From Anaerovibrio lipolyticus LB2005 (GTDB lineage Bacteria > Bacillota > Negativicutes > Selenomonadales > Selenomonadaceae), in NCBI RefSeq assembly GCF_000621545.1, contig NZ_JHYA01000007.1, positions 62,001 to 126,000 on the forward strand: a stretch of 64,000 nt of DNA. Direction: 5' to 3'. The notes beneath the pieces were generated by a model. It made no database searches. It was not told the DNA's origin and worked only from the letters and a program-made list of their open reading frames with translations. A program made the translations under genes and the position numbers. Positions 40,725-48,966 of the stretch are shown here, piece by piece (position 1 is the stretch's first letter; each line of letters starts with the position of its first letter).

Positions 40725-41072
40725 ATGGCAGATTGTATTTTTTGTAAAATTGCAAATAAGGAAATTCCTTCCACTGTTGTATATGAGGATGACCAAGTCA
40801 TTGCTTTTAAGGATTTGGAGCCTCAGGCACCAGTACATGTGCTTGTTATCCCTAAAAAGCATGTTGCTAGTATTGCAGCCTTAAAGTCTGAGGACAAGGA
40901 TCTGGCAGGCCATATTCTCTGTGAGGTTATTCCTAAGATTGCAAAGGAACAGGGCGTTGCCGATAGTGGCTTCCGCGTAGTTGCCAATACTGGCGCAGAA
41001 GGCGGCCAGACCGTCAACCACTTGCATTTCCACCTGTTAGGTGGTCGTTCAATGCAGTGGCCTCCAGGTTAA
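40725..41072 (+). CDS. HIT-family nucleotide hydrolase (HinT-like)
   Basis: A 115-residue HIT protein. The histidine triad HLHFHLLGG puts H99, H101 and H103 at the active site, and Cys4/Cys7 in DCIFCKIA begin the family fold. HinT-like enzymes hydrolyse purine nucleoside phosphoramidates. The gene follows mtaB and precedes rpsU, a conserved Firmicutes order. ATG 40725 follows GGGAGGTG. Confidence 0.95.
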   Translation: MADCIFCKIANKEIPSTVVYEDDQVIAFKDLEPQAPVHVLVIPKKHVASIAALKSEDKDLAGHILCEVIPKIAKEQGVADSGFRVVANTGAEGGQTVNHLHFHLLGGRSMQWPPG

Positions 41073-41113
41073 CATACACCATTGGGGCATGGGGGATTAA
41101 TTCCCATGAAATA

Positions 41114-41142
41114 TTGACATGGCTAAAATCTTTGTGTATAAT
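41114..41142 (+). promoter_or_regulatory. Consensus promoter for rpsU
   Basis: A perfect sigma-70-type promoter: TTGACA (41114-41119), 17-base spacer, TATAAT (41137-41142), 57 bases before the rpsU ATG. Confidence 0.92.
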
Positions 41143-41198
41143 AATCGGGTGTAGTTATGAAATACACTCCCAAGTCAATTGGAGGGGGGGAAAAATAG

Positions 41199-41381
41199 AT
41201 GGCAAACGAAATTAAAGTTGGTAAGAACGAGAGCATTGACAGCGCACTCCGCCGCTTTAAGCGCATGAGCCAGAAAGCTGGTACCATCGCTGAGGTTAGA
41301 AAGCGTGAGCATTATGAGAAGCCAAGTGTTCGCCGTAAGAAGAAGTCTGAGGCAGCTCGTAAGCGCAAGTTTAGAGCTTAA
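41199..41381 (+). CDS. rpsU: 30S ribosomal protein bS21
   Basis: A 60-residue, very basic ribosomal protein. [19 protein letters not shown] and the C-terminal [15 protein letters not shown] are typical. It acts in translation initiation on the small subunit. A GGAGGGGGG Shine-Dalgarno, a consensus promoter and a strong terminator make it an independent, strongly expressed unit. Confidence 0.97.
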
Positions 41382-41404
41382 TTATTAAAGCTTAATATGA
41401 AATT

Positions 41405-41452
41405 AAAGGCTATAGTCGTCCCGTTTCCATGGGATGGTTATAGCCTTTTCTA
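41405..41452 (+). terminator. Intrinsic terminator after rpsU
   Basis: AAAGGCTATA (41405-41414) pairs with TATAGCCTTT (41439-41448), with TCCC/GGGA pairing inside, then a T run. Confidence 0.92.
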
Positions 41453-41540
41453 ATGATTAAAATTTAATTATAAATGTTTAAAAAATAAATTATAAAAGCT
41501 CATTACTCATTAAACTTGCGTTAAATAAGGGCTTGACGTA

Positions 41541-41569
41541 TTGCGGTTACTTTTTTTGCGTGTTATTCT
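41541..41569 (+). promoter_or_regulatory. Predicted promoter for the exported 236-residue protein
   Basis: TTGCGG (41541-41546), 17-base spacer, TATTCT (41564-41569). Moderate match. Confidence 0.4.
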
Positions 41570-41610
41570 TTGGGTAAGAATAATGGAAAAATGGAAAAAG
41601 GGTGATGGAT

Positions 41611-42321
41611 ATGAAAAAGAAATTGGCAGTTGCTATTGCCCTGGCGGTAGGCCTGAATATGGGCCTGGGGCAGATAGTGCAAAATGATTTTACCGCTAAA
41701 ATGGGTTTAAACAGCCGGGCGGAGGCCTTTAATATTTTCAGCCTCTTTGCTCCGTCCAAGAAGGAAATTCAGAATTCCTACAAAAAGATGATTTCTTATT
41801 ACATGGCAGGCTTTGAACTGAGCAGCCGGGCGGCTGCAGTTTCCCACGAGCTGCTCAATGATTATGGAGTAGAGGCGGAGCTGGTAAATGTAAACGGCAT
41901 AAACGCTTCCACCGCTGGATATGATTCCTCGGTGGATATGGTAATGCAGAAGGGCAATTCCGGCAAGACAGTGAAGATGCCTGAAATAGATGCCAACAGG
42001 TTCTTTAATATGATACCTGCTGAGGATGCCCGTCTGGCAGAGGCCAAGAAGCTGGTTATGCTAAAGGATGAATGCTTTGCCCGTGGAAGGGACGAAGGAA
42101 CTTTCCTTGCAGCACAGGCCTTACTTTGTGGTGGTGACCAGACCAGAAATATAGCTATGCTTATAGGCAGTGCTATGCTCCTGAACGAGTGGAAGGACAG
42201 TGTGGACAGCTCCACAGGAGTAAATTATCAGAACTTTGAGAATTCCCTTCGGGCCATGAATAAAGTGGAAGTGGATCAGAGGAAAATAAAAGAAGCCGCT
42301 GATCGCCTGCGGAAGGGATAA
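41611..42321 (+). CDS. Exported protein of unknown function
   Basis: A 236-residue protein that I do not recognise. It has a clear Sec signal (MKKKLAVAIALAVGLNMGLG, cleavage probably after SRAEA near residue 40, which would make the signal region long). The mature part is mainly helical and contains two Cys, in DECFARG and LLCGGD, that could form a disulfide. ATG 41611 is chosen because it directly precedes the lysine-rich signal start and AAAGGGTGA lies well before it; GTG 41602 and ATG 41605 are in frame. It is the first of a run of exported proteins, with sfsA only 16 bases downstream. Confidence 0.75.
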   Translation: MKKKLAVAIALAVGLNMGLGQIVQNDFTAKMGLNSRAEAFNIFSLFAPSKKEIQNSYKKMISYYMAGFELSSRAAAVSHELLNDYGVEAELVNVNGINASTAGYDSSVDMVMQKGNSGKTVKMPEIDANRFFNMIPAEDARLAEAKKLVMLKDECFARGRDEGTFLAAQALLCGGDQTRNIAMLIGSAMLLNEWKDSVDSSTGVNYQNFENSLRAMNKVEVDQRKIKEAADRLRKG

Positions 42322-42337
42322 ATACTGGGAGAAATAT

Positions 42338-43012
42338 ATGCAGTATGGAAAAGTAATATGGGCTAAGTTTATTGAACGGCCTAATCGTTTTGTAGCCAAG
42401 GTTGAAATAAATGGTACGTTGGAAACGGTGCATGTAAAAAATACGGGCAGGTGCAAGGAACTTCTCCTGCCCGGAGTGGATGTGGTGCTTTCAGAGGCAG
42501 ACAACCCTAATCGCAAAACCCGTTATGATTTAATAGCTGTGGAGAAAGCAGGATTGGGCCTTATAAACATAGATAGTCAGGCTCCTAATAAGGTTATGGC
42601 AGAATGGCTGGCCGCTCAGGGCTTTGACTATATAAAGCCGGAGTACACCTATGGTGCTTCCAGAATAGACTTTTACATGGAGTGCCAAGGGCAAAAGTAT
42701 TTACTTGAGGTAAAGGGATGTACTCTTGAAAGAGATGGCATAGGATTTTTCCCCGATGCCCCTACAGAGCGTGGGGTGAAGCACATACATGAGCTTATTA
42801 AGGCAAAAAAGGAAGGGTATTGGGCTGGAATTGCCTTTGTGGTGCAAATGCCTAAGGTCAGTGAGGTTCGTCCAAATATTGAAACCCATCCCGCCTTTGG
42901 GGAAGCCATGGAGCAGGCAAGGGCTGCAGAAGTACAGATTTTAACACTGGGCTGCACGATAAAGCCTGATTCTTTGACAGTGGATAAAAAACGAATAAGT
43001 GGAAGTTTTTAA
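42338..43012 (+). CDS. sfsA: SfsA family nuclease-like protein
   Basis: A 224-residue protein with the SfsA pattern: FIERPNRFVAKVEING at the start (OB-fold part), VHVKNTGRCKELLLPG, and the C-terminal PD-(D/E)XK-like part with RIDFYME and LLEVKGCTLE. SfsA was named from stimulation of maltose genes in E. coli; it resembles a nuclease, but its role is not established. ATG 42338 follows GGGAGAAAT. It is complete. Confidence 0.95.
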   Translation: MQYGKVIWAKFIERPNRFVAKVEINGTLETVHVKNTGRCKELLLPGVDVVLSEADNPNRKTRYDLIAVEKAGLGLINIDSQAPNKVMAEWLAAQGFDYIKPEYTYGASRIDFYMECQGQKYLLEVKGCTLERDGIGFFPDAPTERGVKHIHELIKAKKEGYWAGIAFVVQMPKVSEVRPNIETHPAFGEAMEQARAAEVQILTLGCTIKPDSLTVDKKRISGSF

Positions 43013-43105
43013 TTTTTTTCTAATTAGCCTCTAATTGCCCTGTAGGGCAAAGGGGCTATATTTATTGTAAGGAAGTTGATGATGCTAACTAATGGGGGAT
43101 GAAAT

Positions 43106-44290
43106 ATGAGGCGGGCACTGGGTATATTTTTCATATTGGTAGTTATGGTGGTACTTCCAATGAGGATTGTATTTGCTGAAAAACCGGTTGTTTATATTCA
43201 GCCAGCCCTGACATACGAAAATTCCATCAATAAGATAAATATTGATGAGGATACCCGCCGGCAGGTGGAGCGGATAATTGGAGAAAGGCTAAAGCAAATC
43301 GCTGATGCAGGGGATTTGCCCTATGAGGTCAGAGTGGCTACGGCGGATTCCTATCATAGCACCAATGAGCATATTACAGACAGTGATAAGATATTTCTTT
43401 ACCCCACTATAATGGTCAGCACTTCTATAGATACAGTTAATAATAATTCACTGGAAACGGCATACACTTCAACTGTAATTGCAGGGATTTCGCTAATGTT
43501 CTGTATGCCAGAGGAAAATTTGGATATAACTAGGGTAACTGAAGACGGAAATCCGGTGAGCTTGAGGCTTTTGGGGCTAGTGCCTATGGTGGAGGCTGAA
43601 ACTATAGGCCTTTCCAGATATGATCCCAGCAATGACAGATGGCAGAATATTCACAATGCTCCCATAAGCGAATGGGAAAAGACGGGAAAGTTTATTTCCC
43701 TGGTGCGACAGATGATGAAGGATCATATCAGCTTTTCCAATATAATTGGTAATCTTAGAGATGACAAGGCAAAGCTGGGTATGGATACATATCAGGTGAC
43801 AGATGTTGATATGTCCTCGGAGATGGCCAAGGAGCTATTTACAGGAAAAGAAGCTGAGGATTTAAAATTTCTGGTGGGCTACTGTTTCACATCGGCTTAT
43901 CAGAAAAAGACCAAACGGGTAATGTATCCACCGGCAGTTGGCGGACAGGAGCTGGTTAACAGTATGATAAACGGAGCCTACAAGCTAAGCCTTGACAGTG
44001 CCAATGGTAAGGTGGATGTGCATATGAGTAATCCTGGACATTCTATACGGTTGGATATATCCGGGCTGGCCAGTGAAGTAGTGGATTCAGGGAATAACGT
44101 ATACACGACTTTGCATAAGGTGTGGCTGACAAAGAGTCCAGTGGATGGCAAGGAAAAGCGGGAGCTGAGTAGATTGCATGAGAGAACAGTTAAGCTGCCA
44201 CCGGGCACCAGCACCGATTCCGATGATAATCAGATTTATGCCGCGTTGCTTTTGGGACTGGCTCAGGAGCTGGGCGGGCAGGATAAATAG
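43106..44290 (+). CDS. Exported protein of unknown function in the LPP20/FlgT_N-like cluster
   Basis: A 394-residue protein with an N-terminal Sec signal (MRRALGIFFILVVMVVLPMR, cleavage near VFAEK). I do not recognise a family. The mature part starts with KPVVYIQPALTYEN and a likely amphipathic stretch (RQVERIIGERLKQIAD), which recalls proteins that compute with CsgG-like or surface-assembly domains, but the match is too weak to name. Start ATG 43106 with GGGGG 8 bases before it. The gene is followed closely (55 bases) by the next exported protein and shares its direction with three more, so it is probably one operon to 47.28 kb. Confidence 0.7.
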   Translation: MRRALGIFFILVVMVVLPMRIVFAEKPVVYIQPALTYENSINKINIDEDTRRQVERIIGERLKQIADAGDLPYEVRVATADSYHSTNEHITDSDKIFLYPTIMVSTSIDTVNNNSLETAYTSTVIAGISLMFCMPEENLDITRVTEDGNPVSLRLLGLVPMVEAETIGLSRYDPSNDRWQNIHNAPISEWEKTGKFISLVRQMMKDHISFSNIIGNLRDDKAKLGMDTYQVTDVDMSSEMAKELFTGKEAEDLKFLVGYCFTSAYQKKTKRVMYPPAVGGQELVNSMINGAYKLSLDSANGKVDVHMSNPGHSIRLDISGLASEVVDSGNNVYTTLHKVWLTKSPVDGKEKRELSRLHERTVKLPPGTSTDSDDNQIYAALLLGLAQELGGQDK

Positions 44291-44345
44291 TATGTATTGA
44301 AATAACGAGGGAAATGATAGTGGGCAGGAAAAGGATGATGGGAAT

Positions 44346-45506
44346 ATGATTAAATGCATAAAGAAAAAATGGATTATTCCTATAATGGCCTTTGGAGCAT
44401 TCCTGCTTGGCGGCGGATTCCTTAATCAGCAAATTTGCTCTGCAGAAATTGTAGAGGGAGTAGCTATATATAACGGGGACGCCCAGAAGGCCAGGGAAAT
44501 GGCCCTGAGAGATGCAATGAGAACCCTTTTGGAATCAAAGGTGGGCATGTATATCCGCAGCAATAGTGAGGTGGATATGGGAGTATTGGTTGTAGACAAA
44601 ATAATGGCCCGTTCCACTGGATATGTTCGTATTAATAAGGTGGTATCAGAAAGCATCGAGGGTGACGTTTATGTGGTAAGGGCAGATTTGGATGCAGATG
44701 ATACCAACATTGAAACAAAATATAAGGATGATGTGGCCAAGGCCATGGCGGCAGCATTGGAGCCCAGGGTGGCAAATGTGGCTGTGGTGGATTACGGTAT
44801 AGATGGAAGTATAAGGCGGGATGAACGGGCTGTGAACATTGTAGGTCAGTACCTCAGTGACATGGGAATCCAGATGGTGGAAAATGAAGGGGTGTCACAG
44901 CTGTTATCCCACAGCCTTAACCCTTATCCTTCGGATCTTAGACGAATTGCCAGAAATGATGGTGATAATGAAGCAAACTCCGTTTTGGCGGGTTCCTTGA
45001 GAGATGTAAATGTTAGTCGTGACAGTAGTGGCTATTACAAGGGCGTTGTGGAAGCAAGCTTCTCTCTTGTGGGGATTCAAAACGGATATGCCAATAGTTA
45101 TATGGAACAGTTTGTGGGGCTTGGTAAGACTGCAGATGAGGCCCTGTTTGCAGCCAGAAGGGAAGCTGCAGCCACAGCTACGGAGCATTTGGCAAGAGCA
45201 GCTCTGAAGACGATGCAGTTTGAAAATCGTGGTGGTGTAAATAACCTTAATACCACAGTGGAAATCCACGGATTGTGGGATAGGGCAAACCAAAGCGCAT
45301 TTTTTAACAGTCTGTTGGAGGGAGCCAGGTGCCGAATTACCAGAGCCGGCTTTTCTGCAAATGGTGCTTACAAGGTGAAGGTTATTGCTCAGGGCTGGGA
45401 AAATCTTTATGAGCTGTCACAGGAAATAGTAAGTGCAGCAGCCAGTAATGGATTATCTCTTGTGCCTTTGGAAAGCACCACAAAAATTATTCTTCAGGTT
45501 CAGTAA
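44346..45506 (+). CDS. Exported protein with FlgT_N/LPP20-like domain
   Basis: A 386-residue protein with a Sec signal (about 1-33, cleavage near CSAE). Residues about 35-125 read like the FlgT N-terminal/LPP20 domain: GVAIYNGDAQKAREMALRD, MRTLLESKVGMYIRSNSEV and DVYVVRADLD. The middle (VANVAVVDYGIDGSIRRDE, then QYLSDMGIQMVENEG) resembles the alpha/beta fold of FlgT or CsgG-related proteins. The C-terminal third has an alanine-rich helical segment (ADEALFAARREAAATATEHLARAA). FlgT itself belongs to the flagellar outer-membrane ring of Vibrio, but no flagellar gene is nearby, so the role is open. ATG 44346 follows AGGATGATGGGA. Confidence 0.72.
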   Translation: MIKCIKKKWIIPIMAFGAFLLGGGFLNQQICSAEIVEGVAIYNGDAQKAREMALRDAMRTLLESKVGMYIRSNSEVDMGVLVVDKIMARSTGYVRINKVVSESIEGDVYVVRADLDADDTNIETKYKDDVAKAMAAALEPRVANVAVVDYGIDGSIRRDERAVNIVGQYLSDMGIQMVENEGVSQLLSHSLNPYPSDLRRIARNDGDNEANSVLAGSLRDVNVSRDSSGYYKGVVEASFSLVGIQNGYANSYMEQFVGLGKTADEALFAARREAAATATEHLARAALKTMQFENRGGVNNLNTTVEIHGLWDRANQSAFFNSLLEGARCRITRAGFSANGAYKVKVIAQGWENLYELSQEIVSAAASNGLSLVPLESTTKIILQVQ

Positions 45507-45551
45507 GTTTTTATGATGTATCATGATTGCCGTGGAAGGAGGATGGGCACC

Positions 45552-46442
45552 ATGAACAGACGCTACGTAAAAATGAAATGGCAAATATTATTTATTTTCT
45601 TATTGATATCCTTGCTTTGCGGTATAGTTACCCATGGGGACGTCGAGGCATCACCTTTGGATGTGGTGAAGATAAGTGGTAGCGCTCCGGCAGGTATGGT
45701 TAATAAAGCCGTGGAGGATGCCAAAAAAAGAGCCGTTTTCAAGGTGCTATCCCATGAAACTAGGGCGGAAGGGGATCCCACCAGTATATTTTCACAGATG
45801 ATAGACCGATATGGCGATTACGTCAGCGACTGCAAGGTACTGAGCAGGGACACCAGTAACTCCAAAATGATGGTTATTGCTGAGGTTACTGTAAATCATT
45901 CCAAGCTAAACAAGGATTTTCAGGAATATGTTGGAAATAAACAGGTAACAAATGATGCTATGACAGCCAGTATATTAATGAGGGCCGTGAATACTTCAGA
46001 TAATCAGGGCTTTAGTGATAGCCTTCATGAGGCATTTTATCACAGATTTAGCAATTCGGGATTTCAGACAGAGGTAGAAGATGACGATATAAGAATTGTG
46101 AGGTCTTTATCTGATGCAGAATCCTATGGCAAATATCTTGGTTCTGTAAAAAGTCTGATAGATAATAACTCGATTATGGCAAACTTTGCTATTATCGGTG
46201 AGGCCAGTATTGATAAGCTGGTAGCCGCTCCTGCAGGAACAGGCTATATTGCAAAATCATCAGTGAAGGTGCAGGCCTACGATTGCATGAGAAAAACAGT
46301 TTTGAATGGATTTTATGAAACCTATGAAATTCTCGCCAATACCCCTCAGGAAGCGGAAAGACTGGCCATGGAAAAGGCAGGGCTGGATGCGGCAGAGGAT
46401 ATTGCCAATGGCACATTGAAATATTGGCGTACACATAAATAA
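45552..46442 (+). CDS. Exported LPP20/FlgT_N-like protein
   Basis: A 296-residue protein. After a basic N-terminus and signal (KWQILFIFLLISLLCGIV) the mature part has VNKAVEDAKKRAVFKVLSH, the alanine- and lysine-rich helix seen in LPP20-type proteins, followed by a beta-rich part (VIAEVTVNHSKL). The C-terminus (EILANTPQEAERLAMEKAGLDAAEDIA) resembles the C-terminal helix of the preceding protein. The ATG at 45552 is preferred, with AAGGAGG nine bases before it; ATG 45513 and 45543 lie in frame upstream. It follows the previous gene by 45 bases and probably belongs to the same operon. Confidence 0.7.
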   Translation: MNRRYVKMKWQILFIFLLISLLCGIVTHGDVEASPLDVVKISGSAPAGMVNKAVEDAKKRAVFKVLSHETRAEGDPTSIFSQMIDRYGDYVSDCKVLSRDTSNSKMMVIAEVTVNHSKLNKDFQEYVGNKQVTNDAMTASILMRAVNTSDNQGFSDSLHEAFYHRFSNSGFQTEVEDDDIRIVRSLSDAESYGKYLGSVKSLIDNNSIMANFAIIGEASIDKLVAAPAGTGYIAKSSVKVQAYDCMRKTVLNGFYETYEILANTPQEAERLAMEKAGLDAAEDIANGTLKYWRTHK

Positions 46443-46503
46443 AAGGTTTAAATAAGTGGTCATAAAAATAGTACATATAAATAAAAAATTGGGAGGAATT
46501 TTT

Positions 46504-47280
46504 ATGAAAAAGGTATTTTCGGTAATTGTTGCTTTGGCAATGATGCTCATGGGTTGTACAGCTTTTGCGGCAACTGACATCACAGATGGGGCTATCAAGG
46601 TTGAGGGCGTGGGTGCCCTGCAAAATCCTAATCCAGCGGCAGGCTACAGAGCCGCCAAAATGGATGCTATGCGCAATGCACTGGAGGAGGCTCAGGGAGT
46701 ATATATCGATTCTGAGACTACTGTCCGGGACAGCGTTATGGCCAGTGATGTAATCAAAACCCGTATCAATGGTATGATTAAGGGAGCCAAGGTAGTCCAG
46801 AGGTATAAGGATGCTGATGGCTATCATGTAGTTATTGAGTTCCCTGTTCATGGTGCCCAGTCCCTGGCAGCAGCTGTAATGCCAGCAACTGCCACTACTC
46901 CGGCTCCACTTCCAGCAGCCACTACATTTGTACCAGAGATTCCAGCAAGCACTGGTCCATACACAGGTCTTATCGTTGACTGCACTGGCCTTGGTCTTGA
47001 AACTGCCATGGCACCTGGTGTATTCACTGCAGATAATCAGCTGGTATACGGCAAGGCAAACTTCAGCTATGACCAGGTTGTAAACAAGGGCTATGTGGGC
47101 TATGCCAGAAGCATCAACAGCGGTGTATCCCGTGCCGGCTCTAACCCGCTTATCGTAAGAGCGCTGTCAGTTCAGGGCTTCGTAAATCCAGTGGTATCCT
47201 CTACTGATGCAGCCAGAATTTTAAGCGAAAACCAGATAACCGGCTTCCTTGGCCAGGGCAACGTGGTATTTGTGAAATAA
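46504..47280 (+). CDS. LPP20-family exported protein
   Basis: A 258-residue protein with a signal sequence (MKKVFSVIVALAMMLMGC), so possibly lipid-anchored at Cys18 (MMLMGC) or cleaved near AFAA. The LPP20 domain spans about 28-115: IKVEGVGALQNPNPAAGYRA, KMDAMRNALEEAQGVYIDSE, and YKDADGYHVVIEFPV. A proline/alanine-rich linker (about 118-138) is followed by a domain with YTGLIVDCTGLGLETAM and TDAARILSENQITGFLGQG. LPP20 proteins are outer-membrane or surface lipoproteins of unknown role. ATG 46504 follows GGGAGGAA; the in-frame start at 46456 precedes that site. It ends the cluster before a strong terminator. Confidence 0.82.
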   Translation: MKKVFSVIVALAMMLMGCTAFAATDITDGAIKVEGVGALQNPNPAAGYRAAKMDAMRNALEEAQGVYIDSETTVRDSVMASDVIKTRINGMIKGAKVVQRYKDADGYHVVIEFPVHGAQSLAAAVMPATATTPAPLPAATTFVPEIPASTGPYTGLIVDCTGLGLETAMAPGVFTADNQLVYGKANFSYDQVVNKGYVGYARSINSGVSRAGSNPLIVRALSVQGFVNPVVSSTDAARILSENQITGFLGQGNVVFVK

Positions 47281-47303
47281 AGGAATATCATCTGCAACAA
47301 ACG

Positions 47304-47346
47304 AAAATGGAGGCTCTCGTGTTGTGAGCCTCCATTTTTATTTTTT
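47304..47346 (+). terminator. Intrinsic terminator after the exported-protein cluster
   Basis: AATGGAGGCTC (47306-47316) pairs with GAGCCTCCATT (47326-47336), followed by a long T-rich tract, with an A-run on the left arm side. It lies between convergent genes and could act both ways. Confidence 0.92.
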
Positions 47347-47366
47347 ACTCTATGATTGGCAGCAGG

Positions 47367-47927
47367 TCAATTACCAAGAATTATACCGCCATGAATAAAA
47401 ATAGGTGTTCCGTTGGCAGCAGTCCAAGTGGGAACCTTTGTTGACAGCTTATAAGAGGTATCTAACATGTAGGCAGTGACAAGGATGGCACTGTCCTTGA
47501 TTTTGTGAAAGATTTTGCTGTCCAGTTCTACTTTATAAACCGCAAAGCTATGGGCGTCAATGGAAGAAGATGTCAGTGCCTGGGTGAAGACCATGTTATC
47601 GGACCACTGCCAGAGCTTTTCACCGTTTTTATCAGTAATAACAAAATCATAAAGCTGTCCGTCCCGATGGCTCACACTGTAAGGCAAATCACCACTGTTG
47701 GTAACCTTGAGCTCCATAAAAAGTGTTCCGTTACGTTTTTCAACGGTAAGCTCCTGAATAATATTATCAAATTGGATGGCGGCGTAGTTACAATTAGTGC
47801 TTGGGACACTGGATCCGGAGCCGGACACAGGGAAGGTGATACCGATTCCCGTACCAAAGCCAGCATTAGCAATGCTGGGGATACAAATGTTAATTGCCAC
47901 TACAAGGGTCAATAAAAATTTATACAT
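47367..47927 (-). CDS. Exported BsuPI-domain protein (putative proteinase inhibitor family)
   Basis: A 186-residue exported protein with a signal (MYKFLLTLVVAINICIPS, cleavage near ANA). The body fits the BsuPI family, an immunoglobulin-like beta-sandwich first described as the intracellular proteinase inhibitor of Bacillus: LFMELKVTNSGDLPYSVSHR, then QLYDFVITDKNGEKLWQWSDN and MVFTQA. Unlike the Bacillus inhibitor it is secreted, so protease inhibition is not assured. ATG at 47927 follows GAGGTGATGC on the minus strand. It is convergent with the LPP20 cluster. Confidence 0.8.
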   Translation of the reverse strand: MYKFLLTLVVAINICIPSIANAGFGTGIGITFPVSGSGSSVPSTNCNYAAIQFDNIIQELTVEKRNGTLFMELKVTNSGDLPYSVSHRDGQLYDFVITDKNGEKLWQWSDNMVFTQALTSSSIDAHSFAVYKVELDSKIFHKIKDSAILVTAYMLDTSYKLSTKVPTWTAANGTPIFIHGGIILGN

Positions 47928-48165
47928 AATGCATCACCTCGTGGAATATATTTTTACAACATTTTACAAAATTTTACGGTTTTAGTGAAGGAGGTTGCAG
48001 ATTAAAAAATGTGATGAAATATGATGTGATGTGAGATTTTAAAAAACTTCATATTATGATATACTTCTATAAGTAACCTATTAAAGGGGCTGTGGATACA
48101 GCTCCTTTGTTTTTACTTGTAAAATTATAGAAGAATCGAATATGAATAATTAAGCGGTGATACAG

Positions 48166-48966
48166 ATGAAAGAAATTGTTAAAAGAGCCCATGTTTGGAT
48201 GGATAAATACGTTAAAACCTTCTATGAGGATGATGAGGAGGTTATGCTGGGCATAAAAACCAAGGAGCTGCATACCGGGTATGTGACCTCCTATGCCAGA
48301 GAGCTGGCACAGCATTTGCAGCTTGATGAGCATGACGTACTGTTGGCAGAGCTGGTGGGACTGTTTCATGATGTGGGACGGTTCCGTCAGTGGAAGCTGT
48401 ATCGCACCTTTTCTGATGCCTTGTCAGAGGACCATGCTAATCTTGGCTTGAAGGTCATACAGGAGCTGCCATTTTTCCAGGAGTTAGGAGAGGAGGACAG
48501 GGACATTCTTCTTTTTGCCATTGGCAATCACAACAAGAAGGATATAGCTGCCCCACCAACCAAACGACATCTTCTTTTTGCCAGAATTATCCGTGATGCG
48601 GACAAGCTGGATATATTCAGGGTGCTGGAGCCGTATCTTACGGGCAAGAAAATCCAGACATTTTCCAAGATTCCTTTTGAGGATGAGAAAATGCTCTTTG
48701 CACCAGGATTTATAGATAAATTCGTCCGTGGGGAGCAGGTGGACTACAATGAAATCCGTACCAACAATGATCGCATATTGGTACGGCTTATGTGGGCCTA
48801 TGATATAAATTTTGCCTGGACCATGATTCGCATTCGGGAAAAGGGCTATCTCCCACGGGTTATGGAGCATTTGCCTCAGATTGAAAAGGTGAAGGAGGGT
48901 TACGCCAAGCTAAACAGATATGTGGAGGCAAAGTGTAATTCCTCAGATTTGGATATGCTGGACTAA
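48166..48966 (+). CDS. HD-domain phosphohydrolase family protein
   Basis: A 266-residue HD-domain protein. The metal-binding histidine of HTGYV, the HD pair in LFHDVGRFRQW, the histidine in AIGNHNKKDI and the aspartate in IRDADKLDIFRV are all visible in order. HD proteins hydrolyse phosphates of nucleotides or related compounds; the substrate is unknown. ATG 48166 is chosen with GGTGA before it; GTG 48157 is in frame. The gene stands alone between the BsuPI gene (opposite strand) and glnS. Confidence 0.85.
   Translation: MKEIVKRAHVWMDKYVKTFYEDDEEVMLGIKTKELHTGYVTSYARELAQHLQLDEHDVLLAELVGLFHDVGRFRQWKLYRTFSDALSEDHANLGLKVIQELPFFQELGEEDRDILLFAIGNHNKKDIAAPPTKRHLLFARIIRDADKLDIFRVLEPYLTGKKIQTFSKIPFEDEKMLFAPGFIDKFVRGEQVDYNEIRTNNDRILVRLMWAYDINFAWTMIRIREKGYLPRVMEHLPQIEKVKEGYAKLNRYVEAKCNSSDLDMLD

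Follow-up and report, generated by a model that had tools for sequence, protein, structure and literature searches.

The question raised by a 64,000-nucleotide window of Anaerovibrio lipolyticus LB2005 (contig NZ_JHYA01000007.1; coordinates below are window positions) is what a run of exported proteins resembling FlgT and FlgP does at a locus without recognizable flagellar genes. Proteins of the FlgO, FlgP, and FlgT types are known as components of flagellar motors in Proteobacteria and Campylobacterota. A preliminary description of this DNA proposed that four consecutive genes, here p1 to p4, encode exported proteins, at least three of them with LPP20- or FlgT_N-like domains, and that they form one system specific to this lineage. 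We find that p1 to p4, together with a fifth gene, p0, are one conserved exported system of FlgT/FlgP-type parts, as judged from conservation, co-occurrence, and homology.

Genes p1 (43106 to 44290; 394 aa), p2 (44346 to 45506; 386 aa), p3 (45552 to 46442; 296 aa), and p4 (46504 to 47280; 258 aa) are consecutive forward-strand open reading frames (ORFs) arranged head to tail with short gaps, and each product has a hydrophobic signal sequence at its N terminus. The lengths of p3 and p4 are those at the chosen starts; the longest start gives 309 aa for p3, and an upstream GTG gives 274 aa for p4. The run closes with a Rho-independent terminator on the same strand (47303 to 47346), which consists of a 14-bp stem and a downstream T tract (-22.4 kcal/mol; z = -5.5); it is not listed by a consensus terminator scan, probably because of its loop length. 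All of the features first described for these genes (common strand, product lengths, signal sequences, and a single terminator) were therefore found again. Compared with orthologues, ratios of nonsynonymous to synonymous divergence (dN/dS) are 0.05 to 0.11 for p1 to p4 and 0.03 to 0.07 for p0, reflecting purifying selection, and p1 to p4 are thus real, constrained genes. The cassette proteins are 96 to 99% identical in a related locus (L032). Relative to p0 to p3, dS is lower and codon adaptation higher in p4 (with a reference set of only dnaK and glpK), which suggests that this gene is more highly expressed.

Conservation was followed in 41 genomes of the genus and its relatives and in a survey of 180 genomes of the class. 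All complete Anaerovibrio loci have p1 to p4 in a cluster, and these genes recur in other genera and families, which agrees with the proposal of one conserved system. In complete cassettes p1, p2, and p3 are contiguous and keep their order, and p4 is usually next, lying elsewhere in L042, L089, and L092. In the class survey, p1 is present in 8 of 180 genomes, with one more (G101) added by a local profile, and p3 in nine, with one borderline match in addition; the two genes accompany each other from genome to genome. The nine genomes with the five-gene cassette (pentad) span four genera of the window's own family as well as families f15 and f31. The idea of lineage specificity does not survive this distribution, with diverged cassettes in other Selenomonadaceae and in these two families, and simpler triads common in the class.

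The grouping of p1 to p4 into a unit is upheld, but the unit is larger than four genes, as its upstream member had been missed. Gene p0 (41602 to 42321, forward strand) encodes an exported, probably helical protein of 237 to 239 aa belonging to no known family, and in most cassettes it lies directly upstream of p1, with gaps of -4 to 121 bp where sfsA is absent. Among the 41 related genomes, p0 is found in 11 of the 12 that carry the cassette and in none of the 29 others, and in three (G004, G009, and G011) it is present although unlinked from the cassette. Within the genus the corresponding counts are 10 of 11 and 0 of 5 (Fisher p = 0.0014, uncorrected for phylogeny). We conclude that p0 is the fifth cassette member; its assignments in distant cassettes rest on position and weak similarity. 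Between distant cassettes it is the most divergent member (∼20% identity), and within the genus it ranks with the best conserved. L089 has as many as three p0-like genes in succession. A Pfam match of p0 to AcrF8 (E = 0.014) is below the cut-off and was treated as noise, as were matches to TetR_C_38, LuxE, 50S_L17, ring nuclease, Asr, and TrsH.

Protein p4 matches Pfam LPP20 above the cut-off (E = 6.4e-6; 27.0 bits versus 25.9), and 12 of 13 p4 homologues match this family at an E-value of 0.01. The protein has two domains, an LPP20/FlgP-type domain at about residues 34 to 115 and a C-terminal domain at about 133 to 256 that resembles domain 2 of Treponema Tp0624. In comparisons with known structures, the p4 profile matches FlgP (9hmf, E = 1.7e-16; 8z5n, E = 2.5e-11) and, through its C-terminal half, Tp0624 (5jir, E = 8e-12). 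Protein p2 matches Pfam FlgT_N just below the cut-off (E = 3.5e-6; 27.9 bits versus 28.8), and FlgT_N is matched by 8 of 15 p2 homologues; it is composed of an N-terminal FlgT_N/LPP20-type domain, a middle region shared with p3, and a C-terminal region of its own. Its profile aligns with Campylobacter FlgP (9hmf) at E = 1.4e-10, gaplessly over profile positions 40 to 113, and with p4 over 82 columns (E = 2.1e-13). Ring formation in the FlgP family is reported to accompany an insert that separates the helix from the second strand (PMC12222027). Both p4 and p2 align without gaps to FlgP from the helix to strand 2, the span that holds this insert, and at the level of sequence both appear to keep it.

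Additional copies of p4 occur in L035 and L042, and a 464-aa protein in L047 (9230 to 10624) consists of a full p4-type part preceded by an N-terminal extension. At three loci (L053:696-9689, L095:7362-14178, and L096:7247-14189), p4-type genes adjoin efflux-pump-like genes (TolC, adaptor, and resistance-nodulation-division or MacB-like), which were named from the starts of their sequences only. In Anaerovibrio sp. JC8 (G013), p2 is split into two overlapping ORFs of 97 and 349 aa (L038:7165-8323) and so carries a frameshift, which may reflect either sequencing error or decay. The window's own genome has a second, solitary FlgT_N-like gene on another contig (L048:7888-8766; G000:C6). A match of LipL46 to p2 is weak (18 bits versus 400) and was set aside.

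Protein p3 is a paralogue of p2 that lacks the p2 C-terminal region, the two aligning by hhalign over 250 columns (E = 2.4e-12). It has no meaningful Pfam match, FlgT_N included, its direct profile alignment with p4 is weak (E = 0.004), and it reaches at best E = 0.7 against FlgO chains. The claim of at least three related domain proteins thus stands, with p4 above its Pfam cut-off, p2 0.9 bit below, and p3 linked through paralogy to p2. Structures were modeled with AlphaFold2 for p1 and p3. The p3 model has a predicted local distance difference test score (pLDDT) of 81, and its top Foldseek matches, over about 290 columns, are LPHT-ring chain 8z5n_0 (2.4e-9) and FlgT 3w1e (8.9e-9); p3 is thereby predicted to have the fold of the FlgT N-terminal and middle domains. 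In L092, p3 is extended to 637 aa.

Protein p1 has no Pfam match and no sequence similarity to p2, p3, or any profile tried. Profiles of p1 and p3 do not match the CsgG-like proteins of the class, and identification of p1 as a CsgG homologue by profile is unsupported. The p1 model (pLDDT 72.9; predicted template modeling score [pTM] 0.75) finds HpaA as its best Foldseek match (E = 1.6e-4), followed by LPHT-ring chain 8z5n_0 (5e-4), the curli complex (8e-4), and FlgT 3w1e (9.9e-4), which suggests two similar mixed alpha/beta units of a broad HpaA/FlgT/CsgG/LptE type.

The p4-type genes are distributed more widely than the pentad, in 67 of the 180 class genomes. Among 92 such genes that were fetched, which are not an unbiased sample, 20 are in pentad loci, 21 are near FlgT-like and CsgG-like genes, and 43 are solitary. 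Triads of the CsgG-FlgT-LPP20 kind are frequent in the class (L053, L049, L100, L132, L140, and others), with third members that match CsgG and LpoB, and in some cases FlgT_M and FlgT_C. The p2 proteins of pentads group in a single clade (100/100) that excludes the FlgT-like proteins of triads. The pentad p4 proteins do not form one clade in a quick tree (8 changes), and p4 may therefore have been exchanged between cassette types. Of 104 families neighboring p4-type genes, the 25 commonest are led by CorA, TPR, ROK, and DUF3829, which may reflect shared genome context, and include no flagellar family. Secretin co-occurrence is uninformative, as 177 of the 180 genomes are positive.

Is the cassette, then, part of the flagellum? 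One explanation is that in Anaerovibrio it serves the flagellum as an optional accessory, its genes set apart from the flagellar ones and its products surrounding the L/P rings with a layer that resembles an H-ring or basal disk. We consider this unlikely, even though p4 and p2 match FlgP, p3 matches FlgT by fold, and seven of the nine pentad genomes are FlgH positive. FlgH is present in 92 of the 180 class genomes, and in 58 of 67 with p4-type genes versus 34 of 113 others (Fisher p = 6e-14), a correlation without phylogenetic correction that is confounded by phylogeny, as several families lack FlgH as a block. The absence of any recognizable flagellar gene nearby, noted at the outset, holds for the ORF list of the whole window; elsewhere in the same genome, contigs C10 and C11 carry FlgH and the flagellar rod genes, and C7 carries the cassette. 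FlgH and flagellar rod proteins are both missing from nine of the genomes that bear p4, among them two with the pentad (G101 and G139). Conversely, flagellins are encoded by all 16 Anaerovibrio genomes, and the cassette is missing from five of these. H-ring genes are missing from many flagellated Gammaproteobacteria (PMC6375700), and the flagellated but cassette-less Anaerovibrio genomes are thus neither decisive nor, alone, more than a weak argument; the presence of the cassette in genomes without flagella is a stronger one, and the lack of flagellar families among the commonest p4 neighbors points the same way. That the cassette is not flagellar in general is therefore supported, although not proven.

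A different possibility is that the proteins work mainly on their own in the periplasm or at the surface, like HpaA, Lpp20, or Tp0624, for example as adhesins or envelope-integrity factors, and do not form one machine. The best fold match of p1 to HpaA, the resemblance of p4 to domains 1 and 2 of Tp0624 (for which the available part of its description, PMC5104382, reports no ring), the lack of convincing lipoboxes in p0 to p3, and the 43 solitary p4-type genes would all be in keeping with this. We nonetheless regard it as improbable, given that no complete cassette breaks up the p1-p2-p3 run, that p4 usually follows it, that p1 and p3 occur together, and that p0 co-occurs even where it is unlinked. 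More improbable still is a CsgG/PelC-type export system in which p1 to p3 would be a periplasmic or OM (outer membrane) gate and p0 its exported cargo. Related triads in the class do carry clear CsgG-domain proteins, the p3 and p1 models weakly match PelC, GNA1162, or CsgG, and p0 is the member that diverges most between distant cassettes. However, no CsgG-family protein is found in the pentad by profile nor any Pfam CsgG match in p0 to p4, no convincing lipobox of the kind typical of CsgG is seen in p1 or p3, and within the genus p0 is one of the most conserved members rather than the most variable.

The explanation that we favor, tentatively, is that the five-gene cassette encodes a ring- or disc-type complex at the periplasmic face of the OM, where we infer the location, the association of the parts, and the formation of a ring. 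A ring is possible because p4 and p2 seem to keep the span of the FlgP ring-forming insert. Protein p4 would polymerize to give the ring or disc itself on the periplasmic side of the OM, the FlgT-like p2 and p3 would form a second layer docked on p4, p1 would be a further scaffold subunit, and p0 a cassette-specific accessory. The structure so encircled or stabilized is in general probably not the flagellum, and is probably an undescribed envelope structure, since the cassette shows no linkage to flagellar genes and its occurrence does not depend on the presence of a flagellum. The fuller version of this proposal, a non-flagellar OM-apposed ring machine of diderm Firmicutes, built of FlgP/FlgT-type subunits without lipid anchors around such a structure, is possible but rather doubtful.

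Several observations weigh against a ring complex of this kind. The p4-FlgH correlation could mean a flagellar role. The p3 model has a pTM of 0.52 and scores low against FlgT-type chains (TM-scores of 0.25 to 0.33), so the FlgT domain orientation is not reproduced; the model also lacks the beta-hairpin insert, with a short helix in its place, and p3 may thus not oligomerize as FlgP does. The p1 fold assignment is weakly founded, on a model of moderate confidence and weak Foldseek E-values. Finally, the proteins appear to lack convincing lipoboxes, unlike the FlgP and CsgG lipoproteins, and OM attachment would need another explanation. In a check by regular expression only, a lipobox-like motif at the expected place (LMGC, LVGC, or LMSC, beside an AxA site) was seen only in Anaerovibrio-type p4, with none in most other p4 proteins and none convincing in p0 to p3. 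This scarcity fits the lack of Lol lipoprotein pathway components reported for Negativicutes (PMC5491611).

Comparison with characterized systems shows likeness in parts rather than in the whole. The H-ring of Vibrio and Shewanella (FlgT/FlgP/FlgO; LPHT ring 8z5n, FlgT 3w1e) shares the FlgT N-terminal and middle fold predicted for p3, of which p2 is a paralogue, and the FlgP-type N-terminal domain of p4. The cassette differs in lying away from flagellar genes, in being present without flagella in f15 genomes, in having two FlgT-like paralogues rather than one, an extra C-terminal domain in p4, and the additional p0 and p1, and in lacking a FlgO/CsgG profile match. Campylobacter jejuni basal-disk FlgP (9hmf; PMC12222027) aligns with p4 and p2 over both the helix and the region of the ring-forming insert, but it is a 171-aa flagellar lipoprotein without the second domain of p4, and a lipobox is not conserved in p4. 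Treponema pallidum Tp0624 (5jir) is described (PMC5104382) as a three-domain protein in which domain 1 combines a beta-sheet and a long helix, as expected of an LPP20-type domain, and domain 2 is a pseudo beta-sandwich; the p4 C-terminal domain resembles the region with domain 2, and p4 lacks the OmpA-like third domain. The CsgG/FlgT/LPP20 triads of other Negativicutes share the p4 architecture and an adjoining FlgT-like protein, but have their own CsgG-domain protein, lack p0, p1, and p3, and have FlgT-like proteins outside the pentad clade.

Among neighboring features, sfsA (42338 to 43012, forward strand), assigned from its sequence to the sugar fermentation stimulation protein family, separates p0 from p1 here and in some relatives. 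It is absent from the p0-p1 gap in L033, L034, L038, and L040 to L042, adjoins p1 without p0 in L036 and L037, and is probably a bystander in A. lipolyticus-type genomes. Between sfsA and p1 is a stable forward-strand hairpin (43020 to 43077; -26.2 kcal/mol and z = -4.3 for the region 43005 to 43080), a possible terminator or attenuator; Rfam gave zero matches across 41000 to 48200. Beyond the terminator, on the opposite strand, 47367 to 47927 encodes an exported BsuPI-domain protein (intracellular proteinase inhibitor family), which adjoins the cassette in several Anaerovibrio genomes.

A literature search of small extent found no published description of the cassette, nor of LPP20 together with Negativicutes or with CsgG; by word search, CsgG is not mentioned in the available text of papers on Negativicutes envelopes, nor LPP20 in that of one of these or of PMC5104382. 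The persistence of a FlgT/FlgP-type cassette without flagella in Negativicutes suggests a wider role for such folds at the OM, with flagellar rings perhaps one instance of it. Moreover, non-lipidated relatives of lipoprotein ring proteins, in bacteria for which Lol components are reported to be lacking (PMC5491611), would make OM attachment in diderm Firmicutes directly testable.

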